This document shows positions 17 through 42,731 of a stretch of DNA of 42,731 nucleotides, piece by piece. The stretch comes from Bacteroidia bacterium (GTDB lineage: Bacteria > Bacteroidota > Bacteroidia > AKYH767-A > OLB10): NCBI GenBank assembly GCA_016788065.1, contig JAEUTI010000095.1, positions 1 through 42,731 on the forward strand, in the 5' to 3' direction. Position numbers and translations under genes: made by a program. Under the pieces are notes generated by a model that saw nothing but the letters and a program-made list of their open reading frames with translations, searched no databases and was not told where the DNA came from. The first letter of the stretch is position 1. Each line of letters opens with the position of its first letter.

Positions 17-1519
17 ATGCCAACACATAAAATTTCATCCACACACATCGACTTCAGTACCATTCGAAATATACTTGGTGGAGAATATCAACTAGCACTT
101 TCAGAGGATGCTATTCAGCGAATTAACAAATGCCGCGACTATATTGATCAGCGGATGCAATCGCAGAAAGAACCCATTTATGGCATCAACACGGGGTTTG
201 GGGCGCTTTACGACAAAACCATTTCACATGCCGATTTAGAGACATTGCAAAAAAATCTGGTGATGTCGCATGCATGTGGTGCGGGAGATGAAGTACCACA
301 GCATATTGTGAAACTGATGTTATTTTTGAAAATCCAGGGATTATCTTACGGTAATTCCGGAGTGCAGTTGGAGACTGTTCAGCGGTTGGTTGACTTTTTT
401 AATTATGATATTTTGCCTGTTGTTTATCAACAAGGATCTCTGGGAGCTTCGGGAGATCTGGCACCTTTGGCACATCTTTGCCTGCCTTTACTGGGATTAG
501 GAGAAGTGTATTATAAAGGGGCTCGTAAGCAGGCATCTGACATTTTGGAGCGTCATAACTGGAAGCCAATAAACTTAAAATCGAAAGAAGGATTAGCCCT
601 ATTGAATGGCACTCAATTTATGAGTTCTTATGGCTCATGGGCAATAACCGAATCGCAAAATTTATCGAAGTGGGCCGATTTAATTGGAGCACTGTCTCTG
701 GAAGCTTATGACGGTCGCCCGGAACCATTTCATCATTTAATACAGGCAATAAGACCTCATAAAGGTCAAATTAATACCGCACAGAATTTCAGAATGTTGC
801 TGGAAGGAAGTGAATTGATTCAAAGAAAAAAACAACATGTACAAGATCCATATTCATTCCGATGCATCCCTCAGGTACATGGGGCATCTAAGGACGCTAT
901 TGATTACTGTTCGTTTGCCTTTTTCAATGAAATAAATTCTGTAACAGATAATCCTACAGTTTTCCCGGATGAGAACTTAATTATTTCTGCAGGAAATTTT
1001 CACGGACAACCATTAGCCTTGCCACTCGATTTTCTGGCTATTGCACTTGCTGAGTTGGGTAATATTTCGGAACGACGGACTTACCTTTTAATTTCCGGTC
1101 AACGTGGCCTCCCTCCTTTTCTGGCAGCAAATGCGGGATTAAATTCCGGATTTATGATTCCGCAATATACGGCCGCTTCAATTGTCAGTCAGAATAAACA
1201 ACTGTGTACCCCTGCTTCTGTCGATTCCATTGTATCAAGCAACGGGCAGGAAGATCATGTGAGTATGGGTGCTAATGCTGCAACAAAGGCTTTCCGGGTA
1301 GTAGAGAATCTGAAAACAATTCTGGCAATTGAATTATATACTGCAGCTCAGGCATTAGAATTCCGCAGACCTGCAAAAAGCAGTGCTGCTGTTGAAAAAT
1401 TAGTGGAGGCATACAGAAATCATGTATCGTTTGTTGCGGAAGACCGTTACATGGCAATAGATATAGCTGCTTCCAGGGCTTTTCTGGATAGTTATGAATT
1501 GCCGGATAATTTATGCTGA
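17..1519 (+). CDS. hutH: histidine ammonia-lyase
   Basis: Cytoplasmic lyase that removes ammonia from L-histidine to give trans-urocanate, the first step of histidine breakdown. The Ala-Ser-Gly triad that cyclises into the MIO cofactor is at residues 144-146 within GASGDLAPLAH, and the YGINTGFG segment with the catalytic tyrosine is at 55-62. Ser84-His85 matches the Ser-His pair of histidine lyases rather than the His-Leu or Phe-Leu pairs of tyrosine or phenylalanine lyases, so histidine is the likely substrate (inference from family knowledge). The length, 500 residues, is normal. Only 16 bases precede the start, so its promoter is outside the window; no other hut gene is visible. The stop codon overlaps that of the convergent K+ channel gene by 9 bases. 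Confidence 0.93.
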   Translation: MPTHKISSTHIDFSTIRNILGGEYQLALSEDAIQRINKCRDYIDQRMQSQKEPIYGINTGFGALYDKTISHADLETLQKNLVMSHACGAGDEVPQHIVKLMLFLKIQGLSYGNSGVQLETVQRLVDFFNYDILPVVYQQGSLGASGDLAPLAHLCLPLLGLGEVYYKGARKQASDILERHNWKPINLKSKEGLALLNGTQFMSSYGSWAITESQNLSKWADLIGALSLEAYDGRPEPFHHLIQAIRPHKGQINTAQNFRMLLEGSELIQRKKQHVQDPYSFRCIPQVHGASKDAIDYCSFAFFNEINSVTDNPTVFPDENLIISAGNFHGQPLALPLDFLAIALAELGNISERRTYLLISGQRGLPPFLAANAGLNSGFMIPQYTAASIVSQNKQLCTPASVDSIVSSNGQEDHVSMGANAATKAFRVVENLKTILAIELYTAAQALEFRRPAKSSAAVEKLVEAYRNHVSFVAEDRYMAIDIAASRAFLDSYELPDNLC

Positions 1520-35589: not shown

Positions 35590-36696
35590 ATGGCAATTTT
35601 TGATAGAAATTCCCCATACAATGCATTGCCTGACCTTCCACCGTCGGAAACGATCCTTGACACAGAGATACTGACAAAATGGGGGTTGGCATCACGATCA
35701 TTAGCAGAGTTGAACCGAAATATTCTGAGGATTCCAAATCCAACGATGTTGGTTAACACTATTTCATTACAAGAAGCACAAACCTCGACAGCTATCGAAA
35801 ACATTTTTACCACAGAGGACGAACTTTACAAAGCTGTTTCCGCTTCAATGAAAGAAGATAATGCCAATTCATCAATTAAAGAAGTTCTGCGTTACCGTGA
35901 AGCACTTTGGGGTGGTTACAATACCTTAATTAAAAGCAAGTCATTTGATCAATCTATTGCAATAAGTGTTTTCCAGCAGATAAAAAATACAAATCAGGGA
36001 ATCCGTCCTCCACAATCTCAAACTGTGATTAAACGTGGACAAAGTGAACTCAAGCCCGGTGAGATTATATACACTCCGCCTCGAGGTCTGGGAGTTATAG
36101 AACAAAAACTTGATAACTTGTTTGCTTTTCTGAAATCAAAAAACAATTTCGATCCTTTGTTAAAAATGATAATTGCACATTACCAATTCGAGGCAATACA
36201 TCCATTCACCGATGGAAATGGGAGAACCGGAAGAATTTTGAATTTGCTTTATTTGATAGATCAAAATTTATTATCGCATCCAGTTTTGTATTTAAGTAAA
36301 TATATCATAAATCATAAAGAAGATTATTATTACTTCTTGTCAGGTGTAACTCAACGACAAGCATGGAAGCCATGGATGCTTTATATGCTGGAAGCTATTG
36401 ATACCACTGCACAGCATACGAATAATAAAATTGATGAAATTCTCCAACAAATGGGAGCGACGTATAATTTTGCTAACCAAAAACTGAAATGGTATACATT
36501 AGAGTTAAACCAGGCACTGTTTTCACAGCCTTATATAAAACCAAAAATCATTAGCGAAATTACCGGAGTAAAGAGTCGAACTACACTTACGGATTATATG
36601 CAAAAACTAACCGAACACAAAATTCTTTCATCCAGGCAGGAGGGTCGTGAAGTTTTTTATATCAATGATGATCTGGTGAATATCTTACAAGGGTAA
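35590..36696 (+). CDS. Fic family protein (AMPylase) with N-terminal inhibitory helix and C-terminal winged helix
   Basis: 368 residues, cytoplasmic. The N-terminal Fic/DOC-associated domain (about 10-100) carries the inhibitory motif (S/T)xxxE(G/N) as STAIEN at 66-71, making it a class II self-inhibited Fic protein. The catalytic motif HPFTDGNGRTGR at 204-215 is complete, including His204 and both arginines, so it should transfer AMP (or another nucleotide part) to a hydroxyl on a target protein. A winged-helix-like region lies at about 305-365 (KIISEITGVKSRTTLTDYMQ), possibly DNA-binding. The upstream repeats suggest tight, perhaps autogenous, control (inference). No antitoxin gene is adjacent. 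The target is unknown. Confidence 0.9.
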   Translation: MAIFDRNSPYNALPDLPPSETILDTEILTKWGLASRSLAELNRNILRIPNPTMLVNTISLQEAQTSTAIENIFTTEDELYKAVSASMKEDNANSSIKEVLRYREALWGGYNTLIKSKSFDQSIAISVFQQIKNTNQGIRPPQSQTVIKRGQSELKPGEIIYTPPRGLGVIEQKLDNLFAFLKSKNNFDPLLKMIIAHYQFEAIHPFTDGNGRTGRILNLLYLIDQNLLSHPVLYLSKYIINHKEDYYYFLSGVTQRQAWKPWMLYMLEAIDTTAQHTNNKIDEILQQMGATYNFANQKLKWYTLELNQALFSQPYIKPKIISEITGVKSRTTLTDYMQKLTEHKILSSRQEGREVFYINDDLVNILQG

Positions 36697-36770: not shown

Positions 36771-39455
36771 TTACATCTTCACCAACTTCTTCACTACCGT
36801 TTTTCCATCAATAACCATTCTTACCAAATAAATACCGGAGCTTAGATCAGAAGTATTTAAGTTTAATTTATTTGTGCCGGCTTTCAAGGGGTAACTTTCT
36901 GATTTTATCATTTTCCCTTGAATTGTATGTAGGCTTACCTGTGCGTTGGTTAGATGTGTAGCATTCACTTCAAGTAAGACATGTCCTGTGGTAGGATTCG
37001 GATAAACGATGTAATCGTATTTTGTTTCCAGTTCCTGCAAACCAGTTGGCAATACAATTTTGGAAACCGCAGTATTGGTAAGTACTGGTGCATTGAAATC
37101 GAAATAAATAGCTGCGTTGTTTGCAATACTATCACCTGCAACTAAACTTGTCTTAGGTTGGATGCGATATCGAACGAAGCCATGGCTAAGTGGTTCGTTA
37201 ATATTACTATCGGGTAATAAAATATTGTTAAACTTAAATTCCATATTTCGTTCCCATGGAAGCCATTTAAGCTCTACATTGTGAGAAGCATTTACAAATT
37301 CAAAAGAGCTCAAATTTAATTTGAGGGTATCAATGGGATTGAGAATTTTAACAGTGAAGGCAGTGTCATTTCCTGTATTCTGGAAACGGATGATGTATTC
37401 TAAAAATGGTTCAGTAGCAAGTTGTGTTGTAGTTAAAGTATCTTCATTCACCAGAATATCGTTCGGGTCATATGAACCAGTCACAAACACTTCCCAAGCT
37501 CCATAGTTGCAAGTGGGATTGGCATCTCCTGAAACCGGATCAATTCGAACGGTAGAGTTTAAAAGCGTACCAATTACTAAACCCAGATTAACATTTACCG
37601 TTACTACTATGCTTCCGGTTTGAAAAGGATTTAATGGCCCTAAACTCCACATGACAGAATCGAGTGAAATAGTTGTTGGGGCAACATTTGAAGCAGCATA
37701 TACCACATTATTATCAGGGAAAAATATTATCGTCGGCGCAATAGTAGTTGTACCGACATTTTCATACGAAATCATATATGATGCATTGAACCCGCTTCGA
37801 AAAGGCCCAAGGGGTGAAATGGAAACACACAAATCATTTAATACACCCTGCGGTTGAAAAGCAAAATCGTTCAGGCTATCAGTTTGTTGAACACCTGCAA
37901 AATAAACGTTGTGACTTACCGGAACTACATTGTAATTATTAATTGTAGCAGGAGCTACATTAAAATTTCCTGAATCAAGAACTGCAACAATATATCCTCC
38001 ATTTTGATTACTGAAGCCGAATCTACCGGTATTTTGTTCGGTGATTTTTGTGTTGACAATAAAAGGTTCACCAAAATCCTGAACAGAATTACTATTTCCA
38101 TCGGCGAAAACAGAACCGGTGATTAAATTGTAGTTATCAGTGATTTTTAAAATCCAGTAATCACTGCCGCCAACACTATTTTCTGTTTTATCACCTGAAC
38201 TATTGGAATAAGAATAACCACCCATAATATATCCTCCATCGGTAGTTTGTTGAATCGTTGAAAGATATTCACTACTGCTTCCTCCAAGTGTATTTTGCCA
38301 TTCTATATTTCCATTGGAATCAATTTTTAATATCCAATAATCGTATGATCCAATCTGATTTTCTGTTTTATCACCTGAAATATCTGACCCTGAACGTCCA
38401 CCAACCATAAACCCTCCATCATTAGTTTGAAATATAGAAACAGGATCTTCATAGTTATTTCCACCAATAGTATTTTGCCATTGAATTGAACCCAAACTAT
38501 CTATTTTTAATATCCAAAAATCAGATGAGCCAAGGCAATTCTCTGTTTTGTCTCCAGAAATGTTAGAAATAGATAAACCAGCACAAATAAAACCTCCGTC
38601 TAAGGTTTCTTGAATAGAAGTATTATTATCTACATCACTTCCTCCAATTGTGTTTTGAAACAAAATATTTCCAGTATCATCAGTTTTTATAATCCAATAA
38701 TCATTCGAACCCATAGAATTTTCTGTTTTATCTCCTGAGATATTAGAATCAGAACCTCCTCCTAAAATATATCCACCATCTACACATTGATTAATCGACA
38801 TTAAAAAATCAACTCCACTTCCTCCGATACCATTCTGCCATTGAATAATACCAAATGAATCTGTTTTGACGATCCAATAATCATAGTTTCCGTTGCTATT
38901 TTCTATTTTATCTCCTGAAATACCAGACTTTGATCTCCCTCCAAGAATATACCCACCATCACTAGTTTGGTCCATAGAGTAAAGCTCATCATCACCATTT
39001 CCACCAATTGTGTTCTGCCATTGAATATTTCCGAATGAATCTGTTTTAATGATCCAATAATCCCAATTTCCATGATTAATTTCTGTTTTATCTCCGGAAA
39101 TACCGGAAATAGAATTACCTCCTAAAAGATATCCTCCATCAAAGGTTTGTAGTATTGATGTAAGGTAATCCTGATCTGTTCCTCCAATAGTATTTTGCCA
39201 TTGGATAACACCATTAGCGTCTGTTTTGACAATCCAATAATCATAACTGCCAATATTGTTTTCTGATTTATCACCAGATATGTCAGAATTTGATCGGCCA
39301 CCTAAAATATACCCCCCATCGGCAGTTTGCTGAATAGAATAAAGCTCATCATTACCATTGCCACCAATGGTATTCTGCCAGTCAATTTCCTGAGCTAACG
39401 CCTTTAAACAATTAACCGTAAAAAGGATTAAAAAGATTAATAAATGTTTTTTCAT
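36771..39455 (-). CDS. seven-repeat propeller protein A with T9SS C-terminal domain
   Basis: 894 residues. After a signal peptide (about 1-21, ALAQ) come seven back-to-back repeats of exactly 60 residues at 26-445, each opening WQNTIGG, with a TxDGGYIxGGxSxSxISGDKTEN core and a DYWIxKTD end. Seven such units predict a closed seven-bladed beta-propeller. Next comes a SdrD-B-like segment (TGSVFADGNSNSVQDFGEP, from 446), an Ig/DUF11-like region, a DPNDI-containing repeat-type domain common in Bacteroidota cargo (about 650-800), and a T9SS type A sorting domain in the last ~80 residues ending VVKKLVKM. It is thus a secreted or surface protein of unknown ligand. Its paralogue lies immediately upstream, 67 bases away. 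Confidence 0.85.
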   Translation of the reverse strand: MKKHLLIFLILFTVNCLKALAQEIDWQNTIGGNGNDELYSIQQTADGGYILGGRSNSDISGDKSENNIGSYDYWIVKTDANGVIQWQNTIGGTDQDYLTSILQTFDGGYLLGGNSISGISGDKTEINHGNWDYWIIKTDSFGNIQWQNTIGGNGDDELYSMDQTSDGGYILGGRSKSGISGDKIENSNGNYDYWIVKTDSFGIIQWQNGIGGSGVDFLMSINQCVDGGYILGGGSDSNISGDKTENSMGSNDYWIIKTDDTGNILFQNTIGGSDVDNNTSIQETLDGGFICAGLSISNISGDKTENCLGSSDFWILKIDSLGSIQWQNTIGGNNYEDPVSIFQTNDGGFMVGGRSGSDISGDKTENQIGSYDYWILKIDSNGNIEWQNTLGGSSSEYLSTIQQTTDGGYIMGGYSYSNSSGDKTENSVGGSDYWILKITDNYNLITGSVFADGNSNSVQDFGEPFIVNTKITEQNTGRFGFSNQNGGYIVAVLDSGNFNVAPATINNYNVVPVSHNVYFAGVQQTDSLNDFAFQPQGVLNDLCVSISPLGPFRSGFNASYMISYENVGTTTIAPTIIFFPDNNVVYAASNVAPTTISLDSVMWSLGPLNPFQTGSIVVTVNVNLGLVIGTLLNSTVRIDPVSGDANPTCNYGAWEVFVTGSYDPNDILVNEDTLTTTQLATEPFLEYIIRFQNTGNDTAFTVKILNPIDTLKLNLSSFEFVNASHNVELKWLPWERNMEFKFNNILLPDSNINEPLSHGFVRYRIQPKTSLVAGDSIANNAAIYFDFNAPVLTNTAVSKIVLPTGLQELETKYDYIVYPNPTTGHVLLEVNATHLTNAQVSLHTIQGKMIKSESYPLKAGTNKLNLNTSDLSSGIYLVRMVIDGKTVVKKLVKM

Positions 39456-39522: not shown

Positions 39523-42207
39523 TTACATCTTCACCAATTTCTTCTCCACTGAATTTCCATCGATAACCATTCTTACCAAATAAATACCGGAGCTCAATTC
39601 AGCAGTTTTAAGGTCTAATTTATTGGGACCAGCTTTTAGTTGATGATTCTCTAAAGAAATCAGCTTCCCTTGCATGGTGAGAAGTGTTACTTCAGCTTGA
39701 GCTGATTGACTTGCACTCACATCAATGAAAGTTGCACCTGATGTTGGGTTCGGATAAATGGCGTAATCGTATTTATCACTGAGTGTCTGTAAACCTGTTG
39801 GTAAAACAATATTTGTAACTGCGGTATTGGTAAGCACCGGATCATTGAAGTCGAAGTAAATACCTGCATTATTGTTGATAAAGTTACCGGCAACTAAATT
39901 TGTTTTAGGTTGGATGCGGTAACGAACATAGCCATGACTGAGGAGTTCATTGATGTTGCTATCGGGTAGTAAAATATTGTTAAACTTAAACTCCATGTTA
40001 TTTTCCCAGGAACGCCAATTGAGTTCGACATTATGAGAAGCATTCACAAACTCAAACGAGTTCAAATTAAATTTCTTAACATCAATGGGATTAAGAATAT
40101 TCACAGTAAAGGCTGTATCGTTTCCGGTATTCTGAAAGCGGATGATGTACTCTAGAAATGGTTGACCAGCAAGTTGCGTAGTGGTTAACGTTTCATCACT
40201 AACCAGAATATCATTCGGATCAAAAGACCCAGTCACAATCACATCCCAATCGCTATAGTTGCAAGCAGGATTAGCATCACCGGAAACAGGTTCAATGCGG
40301 GCAGAAGAATTTAACATAGAGCCAATAGCTAATCCGCTATCCACACTTACAACTATCATAAATTCACCAGATTCAAAAGGCAGCAGTGGGTTAAGGGTCC
40401 ACACCACAGAATCAGGAGCAACAGCAGATGGAACAACCGTAGCAGTAGAATAACTCATATTCAAATCGGGGAAAAATACAACTGAAGGATTTGTTATAGT
40501 TGTTGTTCCGACATTTTCATAGGAAATCATATAAGATGCCAGAAACCCACTCCGGAAAGGACTTAGTGGCGTAATGGTGACACATAAATCATTTAATACA
40601 CCTTGTGGTTGATATGCAAAATCATTTAGGTTATCGGTTTGCTGAAATCCTGGGAAATAGGAATTGTGAGAAGCGGGAGATGCAGTATAATTATTGAGAT
40701 TTATGGGAGAAACATCAAAGCTTCCGGAATCAAGTACTGAAACTACATAATCTCCATTTTGATTAGTGAATGTAAATCTTCCGGTGGCTTGTTCAGTAAT
40801 TTTTTTATTTAACAATAGAGGTTCTCCTAAATCTTGAGAATTATTACTGTTCAAATCGGCAAATACAGATCCGGAAATTAAATTATATTTATTGGTAAGT
40901 TTAACGATGCAGTAATCATTTGCCCCTACATTAAAATCAGTAATATCACCTGAATTTTCAGAATCAGATGAACCGGCCAGAATGTATCCTCCGTCTGTTG
41001 TTTCCAAAATATCTGCCAGTATTTCCTGACCACTTCCTCCGATTGTATTTTGCCATTGAATGACTCCTATGTTATCTGTTTTTACCACCCAGAAGTCGTG
41101 CGCACCAAAACCAGCTTCAGTTTTGTCACCTGAAATCCCGGATGATGAAAAGCCACCCATTATAAATCCACCATCAGTAGTTGGTTTGAGACAGTAAAAC
41201 GCATCTTCATCATTACCACCTATAGAATGCTGCCATTGAATAATGCCTGAACCATCGGTTTTGACTATCCAATAATCGCTTGCACCGTTGCTGTTTTCTG
41301 TTTTATCACCTGATAAATTTGAATAGGATCTTCCGCCGATGATGTAACCGCCATCAATTGTTTGATATGTTGCAAAAAGTTCATCAGAACTATTTCCTCC
41401 AATGGTATTCTGCCATTGAATGATTCCAACGCTATCCGTTTTTACAATCCAGTAATCATTAGAACCATTGGTATTTTCAGTTTTATTACCTGAAATATTT
41501 GAATTAGAGTATCCTCCCAACATATATCCACCGTCAACGGTTTGCTCTACTGTTTGAAGGTAATCATAACTTCCACCACCAATTGTTTTTTGCCATTGAA
41601 TGGACCCAGTACTATCGATTTTCACGATCCAGTAATCTAAAAGTCCATAACTATCTTCGTTTTTATCACCAGAAATATCGGAATCAGAAAAACCACCCAA
41701 GAGGTAACCTCCATCAGTAGTTTGCTGAATAGAAGTAAGCTGATCACCACCTGCTCCACCAATGCCATTTTGCCATTGGATATTTCCGGTATTGTCAAGT
41801 TTCAAAACCCAAAAATCCGATAACCCGTTGCTATCTTCGGTTTTGTCACCGGAAATATTGGAATCAGAAAACCCACCAACAATATAACCGCCATCGGGGG
41901 TTTGCTGAATAGTAGCGAGTTGATCGTAACCACCACCTCCAATGGTATTTTGCCACTGAATATTCCCGTCAACATCAGTTTTCAATATCCAGAAATCCCA
42001 ACTGCCATTGCTATTTTCAGTTTTGTCTCCAGAAATATCCGATTCAGACATACCGCCAAATATAAATCCGCCATCGGCAGTTTGTTTAACGCAATAAAGA
42101 TATTCGCTGGCAAACCCGCCCATTGATTTCTGCCATTCGATTTCCTGTGCAAAAGAGATTGACAGGGTGAGTGCCAAGACACCGGTTAAGAGTAGAAGCT
42201 TTTTCAT
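39523..42207 (-). CDS. seven-repeat propeller protein B with T9SS C-terminal domain (paralogue of A)
   Basis: Also 894 residues, with the same architecture: signal peptide ending SFAQ, seven 60-residue repeats at 25-444 opening WQxTIGG, a SGSVFADLNSNNSQDLGEP segment, the Ig-like and DPNDI regions, and a T9SS domain ending VEKKLVKM. Repeat sequences differ from those of A while length and repeat number are identical. The C-terminal half is much more alike than the repeats (FVNASHNVEL, FKFNNILLPDSNIN). The pair is a tandem duplication with diversified propellers. No clear TAnnTTTG promoter is found upstream of 42207. Confidence 0.85.
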   Translation of the reverse strand: MKKLLLLTGVLALTLSISFAQEIEWQKSMGGFASEYLYCVKQTADGGFIFGGMSESDISGDKTENSNGSWDFWILKTDVDGNIQWQNTIGGGGYDQLATIQQTPDGGYIVGGFSDSNISGDKTEDSNGLSDFWVLKLDNTGNIQWQNGIGGAGGDQLTSIQQTTDGGYLLGGFSDSDISGDKNEDSYGLLDYWIVKIDSTGSIQWQKTIGGGSYDYLQTVEQTVDGGYMLGGYSNSNISGNKTENTNGSNDYWIVKTDSVGIIQWQNTIGGNSSDELFATYQTIDGGYIIGGRSYSNLSGDKTENSNGASDYWIVKTDGSGIIQWQHSIGGNDEDAFYCLKPTTDGGFIMGGFSSSGISGDKTEAGFGAHDFWVVKTDNIGVIQWQNTIGGSGQEILADILETTDGGYILAGSSDSENSGDITDFNVGANDYCIVKLTNKYNLISGSVFADLNSNNSQDLGEPLLLNKKITEQATGRFTFTNQNGDYVVSVLDSGSFDVSPINLNNYTASPASHNSYFPGFQQTDNLNDFAYQPQGVLNDLCVTITPLSPFRSGFLASYMISYENVGTTTITNPSVVFFPDLNMSYSTATVVPSAVAPDSVVWTLNPLLPFESGEFMIVVSVDSGLAIGSMLNSSARIEPVSGDANPACNYSDWDVIVTGSFDPNDILVSDETLTTTQLAGQPFLEYIIRFQNTGNDTAFTVNILNPIDVKKFNLNSFEFVNASHNVELNWRSWENNMEFKFNNILLPDSNINELLSHGYVRYRIQPKTNLVAGNFINNNAGIYFDFNDPVLTNTAVTNIVLPTGLQTLSDKYDYAIYPNPTSGATFIDVSASQSAQAEVTLLTMQGKLISLENHQLKAGPNKLDLKTAELSSGIYLVRMVIDGNSVEKKLVKM

Positions 42208-42521: not shown

Positions 42522-42551
42522 TTTGAAAATCCCAAAAATTCACTACTTTTG
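42522..42551 (+). promoter_or_regulatory. strong promoter of the tRNA-like array
   Basis: TTTG (42522-42525), 18 bases, TACTTTTG (42544-42551), close to the ideal Bacteroidota consensus. Transcription would start near 42558, just before the first tRNA-like unit. A small hairpin TCCAAA/TTTGGA (42556-42571) would lie at the 5' end. Confidence 0.72.
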
Positions 42552-42575
42552 TGCCTCCAAAGAAATTTGGAAAAC

Positions 42576-42656
42576 GGTTCGGTAGTTCAGCTGGTTAGAA
42601 TATATGCCTGTCATCTCGTCACAAGTGACGAGACGGGTTCGAGGCCCTACCGAATG
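42576..42656 (+). ncRNA. tRNA-Asp-like unit 1 with palindromic replacement of the anticodon 3' stem
   Basis: The 5' half is tRNA-Asp-like: acceptor GGTTCGG, TA, D-arm GTTC-AGCTGGTTA-GAAT, and the GTC anticodon at 42610-42612 in loop CTGTCAT. The 3' anticodon stem is missing: TCTCGTCAC, AA, GTGACGAGA (42614-42633) forms a perfect 9-bp hairpin instead. A T-loop TTCGAGG (42638-42644) with a shortened GGG/CCC stem and a 3' strand CCGAA that pairs with the acceptor remain. No CCA is encoded. It cannot fold as a normal tRNA; I call it a tRNA-derived RNA or pseudo-tRNA with high structure. Confidence 0.65.
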
Positions 42657-42688
42657 ATTGTAGTGAGTTCTTTATAGTAATAATATTT

Positions 42689-42731
42689 GGTTCGGTAGTT
42701 CAGCTGGTTAGAATACATGCCTGTCATCTCG
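42689..42731 (+). ncRNA. tRNA-Asp-like unit 2, cut by the window end
   Basis: The first 43 bases repeat unit 1 with one difference (CATGC for TATGC in the anticodon stem), 113 bases downstream. It already shows the same departure from tRNA-Asp after the anticodon (TCATCTCG), so the altered arm was present before duplication or is maintained in both units. Confidence 0.65.

Follow-up and report, generated by a model that had tools for sequence, protein, structure and literature searches.

The altered tRNA-Asp units

The window analysed here is the whole of contig JAEUTI010000095.1 (C30), 42,731 nucleotides long, from the genome assembly GCA_016788065.1 of a Bacteroidia bacterium. Two tRNA-Asp-like units, 113 bases apart and carrying the same alteration, are found at its end, as the first-pass annotation had described (Table 1). 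Both units start as tRNA-Asp does, with an exact match to its 5' part, and retain the sequence CCTGTCA, which contains the anticodon GTC and A37, and unit 1 retains the T-arm sequence CGGGTTCGAG as well. Twelve tRNA-Asp bases (CGCATGGGGTCG) have been exchanged in unit 1 for a 20-base palindrome. The palindrome is perfect and has an AA loop, in agreement with the earlier description of a hairpin in the tRNA arm. The 25-base 5' signature of the units occurs twice in the window, compared to no occurrence in 100 shuffles. The predicted RNA fold of the unit has an energy of -29.3 kcal/mol and is more stable than those of shuffled sequences (z = -2.86).

The promoter that had been proposed just before the array is of the Bacteroidota type. 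Its TTTG element occupies positions 42522-42525 and is separated by a spacer of 18 bases from TACTTTTG (42544-42551), which is positioned 32 bases upstream of unit 1.

The window also encodes two adjacent 894-residue proteins on the reverse strand (36771-39455 and 39523-42207), each containing DUF7619 and a Por_Secre_tail sorting domain, and a Fic/DOC family protein on the forward strand (35590-36696) with a SoFic-like C-terminal domain.

Table 1. Features of the tRNA-Asp array in the window and on contig C50 (locus L010)
Feature	Location	Strand	Remarks
Bacteroidota-type promoter, TTTG-N18-TACTTTTG	window 42522..42551	+	TAnnTTTG also precedes the first broken unit in array-bearing relatives and the intact tRNA in array-less ones
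Altered tRNA-Asp unit 1	window 42576..42656	+	Retains 5' acceptor, D-arm, CCTGTCA and CGGGTTCGAG; palindrome in place of bases 38-49; 3' acceptor altered
Palindrome TCTCGTCAC-AA-GTGACGAGA, replacing CGCATGGGGTCG	window 42614..42633	+	Equal position at Asp-linked loci of other genomes
Inter-unit spacer	window 42657..42688	+	Also precedes the intact tRNA-Asp on contig C50
Altered tRNA-Asp unit 2	window 42689..42731	+	Ends with the contig, after the first five palindrome bases; likely continuation is contig C50 (L010)
Intact tRNA-Asp	C50:83-159		Follows altered unit and spacer
GIY-YIG nuclease gene, 81-residue protein	C50 (L010) 196-441		Downstream of intact tRNA-Asp
Palindrome-broken tRNA-Asp 3' half	C50 (L010) about 457-510		CCTGTCA-TCTCGTCAtttaTGACGAGA-CGGGTTCGAGTCCCGTCCGG

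Continuation of the array

Contig C50 appears from its sequence to continue the window contig. It starts with the 3' part of an altered unit, which is identical to the unit in the window (100% over 54 bases) and is followed by an equal spacer. The join between the two contigs is an overlap of 12 bases, and the altered units number at least two. The first-pass annotation had proposed to look beyond position 42731 for further units. An identical altered unit is indeed present there. The array then terminates in a normal tRNA-Asp gene, with a GIY-YIG nuclease gene and one more broken copy behind it; these had been missed because they lie beyond the window. A terminator-like stem is positioned between the intact tRNA-Asp and the GIY-YIG gene. 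Other genomes have comparable arrays inside unbroken contigs, among them the 4.27-Mb SSA2 chromosome (CP058707.1), and misassembly is therefore not the cause of the pattern.

Downstream of the broken tRNA-Asp half, the same locus contains AT-rich tandem-like repeats (ACCGATTGGAAATTTCGG... and CCCCACCCTATTG; L010 540-1100) and an IS200-like Y1_Tnp transposase gene on the reverse strand (L010 1141-1572), about 0.6 kb beyond the last broken tRNA-Asp copy.

The promoter motif TAnnTTTG was not found in the 82 bases preceding the intact tRNA-Asp on contig C50. In array-bearing relatives the motif is located 23-71 bases upstream of the first broken unit and is absent from the approximately 100 bases before the intact tRNA, whereas in array-less relatives it is located 23-72 bases upstream of the intact tRNA. 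This arrangement suggests that the upstream broken units are probably co-transcribed with the tRNA. The altered units are thus probably read through from the tRNA promoter, yet are not working tRNAs.

ARAGORN found no tRNA in the window, and the Rfam scan of the window gave nothing above the cut-off. The Rfam tRNA model RF00005 scored the unit at 14.4 bits against a cut-off of 29 bits. The units, in which parts of tRNA-Asp had been recognised earlier, are not accepted as tRNAs by these programs, and a functional tRNA-Asp gene was rejected as an identity for the unit. Two roles suggested for the units, a tRNA mimic and a decoy for aspartyl-tRNA synthetase or a nuclease, are unsupported. In other arrays the missing part is the anticodon arm in type B, the D-arm in SSA2 and the T-loop elsewhere, and hence no tRNA identity is preserved. 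The same is true of the suggested attachment-site array, for no integrase was seen and, in this genome, Asp-derived units occur only beside their parent tRNA. A phage origin was also dropped, there being no integrase or phage match; the lone IMG/VR match falls in a GC-rich coding stretch by chance. A proliferating repeat was also among the suggestions, and the central claim was correct in that a promoter-driven tandem array derived from tRNA-Asp and sharing one alteration is not the product of random decay.

Other tRNA loci of the genome

Three such GIY-YIG genes are present in the genome, each downstream of a tRNA gene on the same strand (Asp, Met and Asn), and every one of these loci contains palindrome-broken partial copies of the local tRNA. 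At the tRNA-Met locus, TCCGCCGCATGGCGGA occupies the D-loop of two upstream copies, and a single downstream copy combines palindromes in the D-loop, the variable region and the T-loop. The Val, Gly, Leu and Ala loci contain broken tRNA copies as well, but have no GIY-YIG match. Downstream of the tRNA-Leu gene among them (L212, C45:24800-27600), copies stand in a row, each with as many as three TCCCGATAGCTATCGGGA-type palindromes, and the terminator is repeated. There are five TCTCGTCA palindromes and eight exact TCCCGATAGCTATCGGGA sites in the genome, and seven of the latter are inside tRNA copies. TCCCGATAGCTATCGGGA is common to the Val, Gly, Leu and Met tRNA loci. The recurrence of one palindrome at different tRNAs of one genome indicates that the palindrome is copied in.

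Association of GIY-YIG genes with tRNA genes

Units similar to those in the window had been expected in relatives and were found across Bacteroidota genomes. In the order and phylum samples, a same-strand tRNA lies within 500 bp of 52 of the 62 GIY-YIG genes that have a flank of at least 500 bp on both sides, and an opposite-strand tRNA is near none of them; these loci are the best-scoring search returns and not a random sample. The neighboring tRNAs represent eleven amino-acid types. Among the genes of a sister GIY-YIG clade, used as a control, none of ten has a tRNA within 500 bp. Y1_Tnp genes of the order sample, a second control, are equally distant from tRNAs (0/24 within 500 bp), and hence do not flank these tRNA copies. 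An Rfam check of the GIY-YIG genes that have no nearby tRNA gave no convincing RNA match.

The common layout consists of a small GIY-YIG gene by one intact tRNA, with palindrome-substituted partial copies of the tRNA upstream and downstream. Behind the nuclease ORF there is often a second 3' end of its own tRNA, and in several cases the terminator is repeated too. Part of the tRNA and the nuclease gene are repeated together in tandem at three loci (L111, L225 and L224). UBA4416 contains whole units of broken tRNA, terminator and ORF in tandem, and SSA2 contains broken tRNA units in tandem. The tRNA-Asp arrays of three genomes (G025, G017 and G032) have broken copies but no GIY-YIG match at the locus.

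Longer repeats surround the GIY-YIG gene at two loci. Those at L126 (G006) are accompanied by complex hairpins within the tRNA-Asp T-loop, and those at L139 (G004) are not recognisably tRNA.

The nuclease and the position of the palindrome

The protein belongs to the GIY-YIG superfamily (PF01541 domain, E = 2.3e-15), and the VYI, YKG, R, H and E columns are retained across most of the alignment made for the Asp clade. The Asp and Met proteins are not covered by any NCBIfam model. Four close pairs give dN/dS ratios of 0.04-0.17 for the ORF, which is therefore under purifying selection. At one locus (L077 of G007) the Asp-clade ORF is interrupted by TAG; the array of broken tRNAs is still there.

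A single clade (100/98) unites twelve Asp-linked proteins whose genomes belong to many families, five of the twelve Asp labels being taken from a broken copy and not from an intact tRNA within reach. The tRNA label changes 3 times on the tree compared to 13.4 times in shuffles, a value attained in 0 of 500 shuffles. The palindrome in the Asp-clade broken copies has one placement, after CCTGTCA(CG/CGG) and before GGGTTCGAG (or CGAGTTCGAG), and its sequence varies at this constant tRNA position (TCTCGTCA, TCTCGCC, TCCCGGC and TCCCCAA types). The outer stems of the palindromes are largely constant, the loops are variable and the inner pairs are compensatory. Two other nuclease clades at tRNA-Asp (L126 and L228) have the palindrome in the T-loop, and in relatives of the L126 protein a boundary coincides with the T-loop of Arg, Pro and Ser tRNAs or lies close to it. 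The palindrome position appears to follow the nuclease clade and some clades keep to one tRNA, the contrasts being few. The detection of downstream palindromes also catches the natural anticodon arms of tRNA-Lys, and the L230 and L245 rows were left out as evidence. The contig pattern search, in which the gap between palindrome and T-arm was one base too short, recovered a part of the Asp set.

A proposed nuclease element in tRNA genes

We propose, with a probability of roughly one half, that the units belong to a tRNA-dwelling element with a GIY-YIG nuclease, which would drive local tandem amplification. The layout is observed; the mechanism could be as follows. The nuclease would cut or nick its own tRNA gene, and repair by recombination with nearby tRNA pieces would result in tandem duplication of the segment, as for SegB in phage T6. 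The palindrome would mark the cut or recognition site, or its vicinity, in all copies but the one intact copy that the cell needs. SegB, a GIY-YIG homing endonuclease of phages T4 and T6, cleaves inside tRNA genes, and tandem amplification of the segment comprising tRNA-Tyr and segB in phage T6 depends on its activity (PMC13096335). The element would then be a chromosomal counterpart of SegB.

This reading is favored because of the link between GIY-YIG genes and tRNAs, the layout of the Asp, Met and Asn loci, the clade-specific palindrome positions, the purifying selection on the ORF and the SegB precedent. The phylum-wide pattern is probably the trace of a selfish nuclease dwelling in tRNA genes. 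Several points count against the proposal. The arrays of G025, G017 and G032, and those at the Val, Gly, Leu and Ala loci of this genome, have no GIY-YIG match. The escape of the intact tRNA from cutting is not accounted for, and the copying of the palindrome is a step without a demonstrated enzyme. Furthermore, some broken copies at the Met and Leu loci have palindromes at several positions at once, no palindromes are reported in SegB products, and the contrasts between clade and position are few.

Alternative explanations

The main rival is based on the Ssn proteins of Neisseria, which are reportedly single-strand-specific GIY-YIG nucleases with cognate NTS repeats, said to be present in hundreds of copies genome-wide. 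The palindrome would be the recognition site of the nuclease, cut as a single-stranded hairpin, and the arrays would be repeats kept for or by that activity. A small GIY-YIG protein is indeed found here beside short palindromes, whose loops vary while the outer stems stay largely constant and the inner pairs compensate, in line with such a role. Neisserial dRS3 repeats, which are CGTC-type palindromes in large clusters, were also counted in its favor (PMC3733652). However, the palindrome changes within one nuclease clade (TCTCG, TCCCGG, TCCCCAA) while its position in the tRNA is constant, which fits an enzyme that reads the tRNA better. Moreover, there are few palindromes, most of them at tRNA loci: the five TCTCGTCA palindromes and eight exact TCCCGATAGCTATCGGGA sites of this genome are far from the hundreds reported for NTS. 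We consider this explanation unlikely.

Free-standing mobile palindromes similar to REP sequences could have entered redundant copies of tRNAs, with the GIY-YIG gene carried along as a passenger. Insertion of this kind would agree with the presence of one palindrome at different tRNAs of one genome, and with the loci that have broken copies yet no GIY-YIG match. It is nevertheless quite improbable. It leaves the tight link between tRNA and GIY-YIG genes and the clade-specific positions unexplained, tyrosine transposases are not beside tRNAs (the 0/24 control), and seven of the eight exact TCCCGATAGCTATCGGGA sites of this genome are gathered in tRNA copies instead of being scattered.

The broken units might also be functional leader RNAs (a tRNA-like regulator, a decoy or a processing signal) transcribed before the tRNA. 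Their location between the promoter and the intact tRNA in several genomes and the stable fold of the window unit speak for such a function. It is made very unlikely by the lack of any conserved tRNA feature, since any one of anticodon arm, D-arm and T-arm can be absent, and by the downstream copies, which sit behind the tRNA terminator. Type A units are, furthermore, absent from most sampled genomes of the class. Neutral decay of tandem tRNA duplicates, or misassembly, is barely credible: the contig does break within the array, degraded copies exist and a stop codon interrupts the ORF of G007, but decay would not yield perfect palindromes of 7-10 bp at one position in many genomes, and the arrays occur in continuous contigs too.

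Significance and comparison with known systems

No description of these arrays was found in the open-licence literature on GIY-YIG proteins with tRNA, palindromes and Bacteroidetes, or under the palindrome sequences themselves, and an earlier account is possible. Should the nuclease element exist as proposed, it would account for a feature that is seen repeatedly at Bacteroidota tRNA loci and is undescribed in the open-licence literature searched. The likely target of many small GIY-YIG proteins would be the adjoining tRNA gene, and the natural sets of altered target sites would allow the specificity of each nuclease to be read. It is possible, if doubtful, that such elements constitute a distinct class of bacterial selfish elements, in which a minimal GIY-YIG nuclease is locked to a tRNA and a site, multiplies local copies and marks the site with exchangeable palindromes, with one intact tRNA being kept.

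The nearest solved GIY-YIG chains by sequence are the UPF0213 proteins EF2693 (1ywl) and BH0048 (1zg2), with E values of 1e-6 and 9e-6, a weak similarity; both were deposited as hypothetical proteins with no function given. The Ssn/NTS system is similar in having a small GIY-YIG protein near short palindromic repeats, but the palindromes described here, unlike NTS repeats, are few, are inside tRNA copies and vary in sequence at a fixed position. REP and CGTC/dRS3 sequences are likewise short palindromes with variable loops, and the CGTC type has been reported in Bacteroidetes and has no dedicated transposase (PMC3733652). They are interspersed repeats, whereas the palindromes here take the place of defined tRNA portions in copies adjacent to the parent tRNA.

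The likeness to SegB, compared here by description, lies in a nuclease gene that adjoins tRNA genes (52/62 here) and in tandem repeats of part of a tRNA and the gene (L111, L225 and L224). SegB is phage-borne and is found beside many isotypes without preference, whereas the nucleases here are chromosomal, about 80 residues long and, in the Asp clade, restricted to one tRNA and one position (PMC13096335). Palindrome-substituted tRNA copies have not been described for SegB, nor have its products been reported with palindromes (PMC13096335), whereas such copies are present in the arrays described here.
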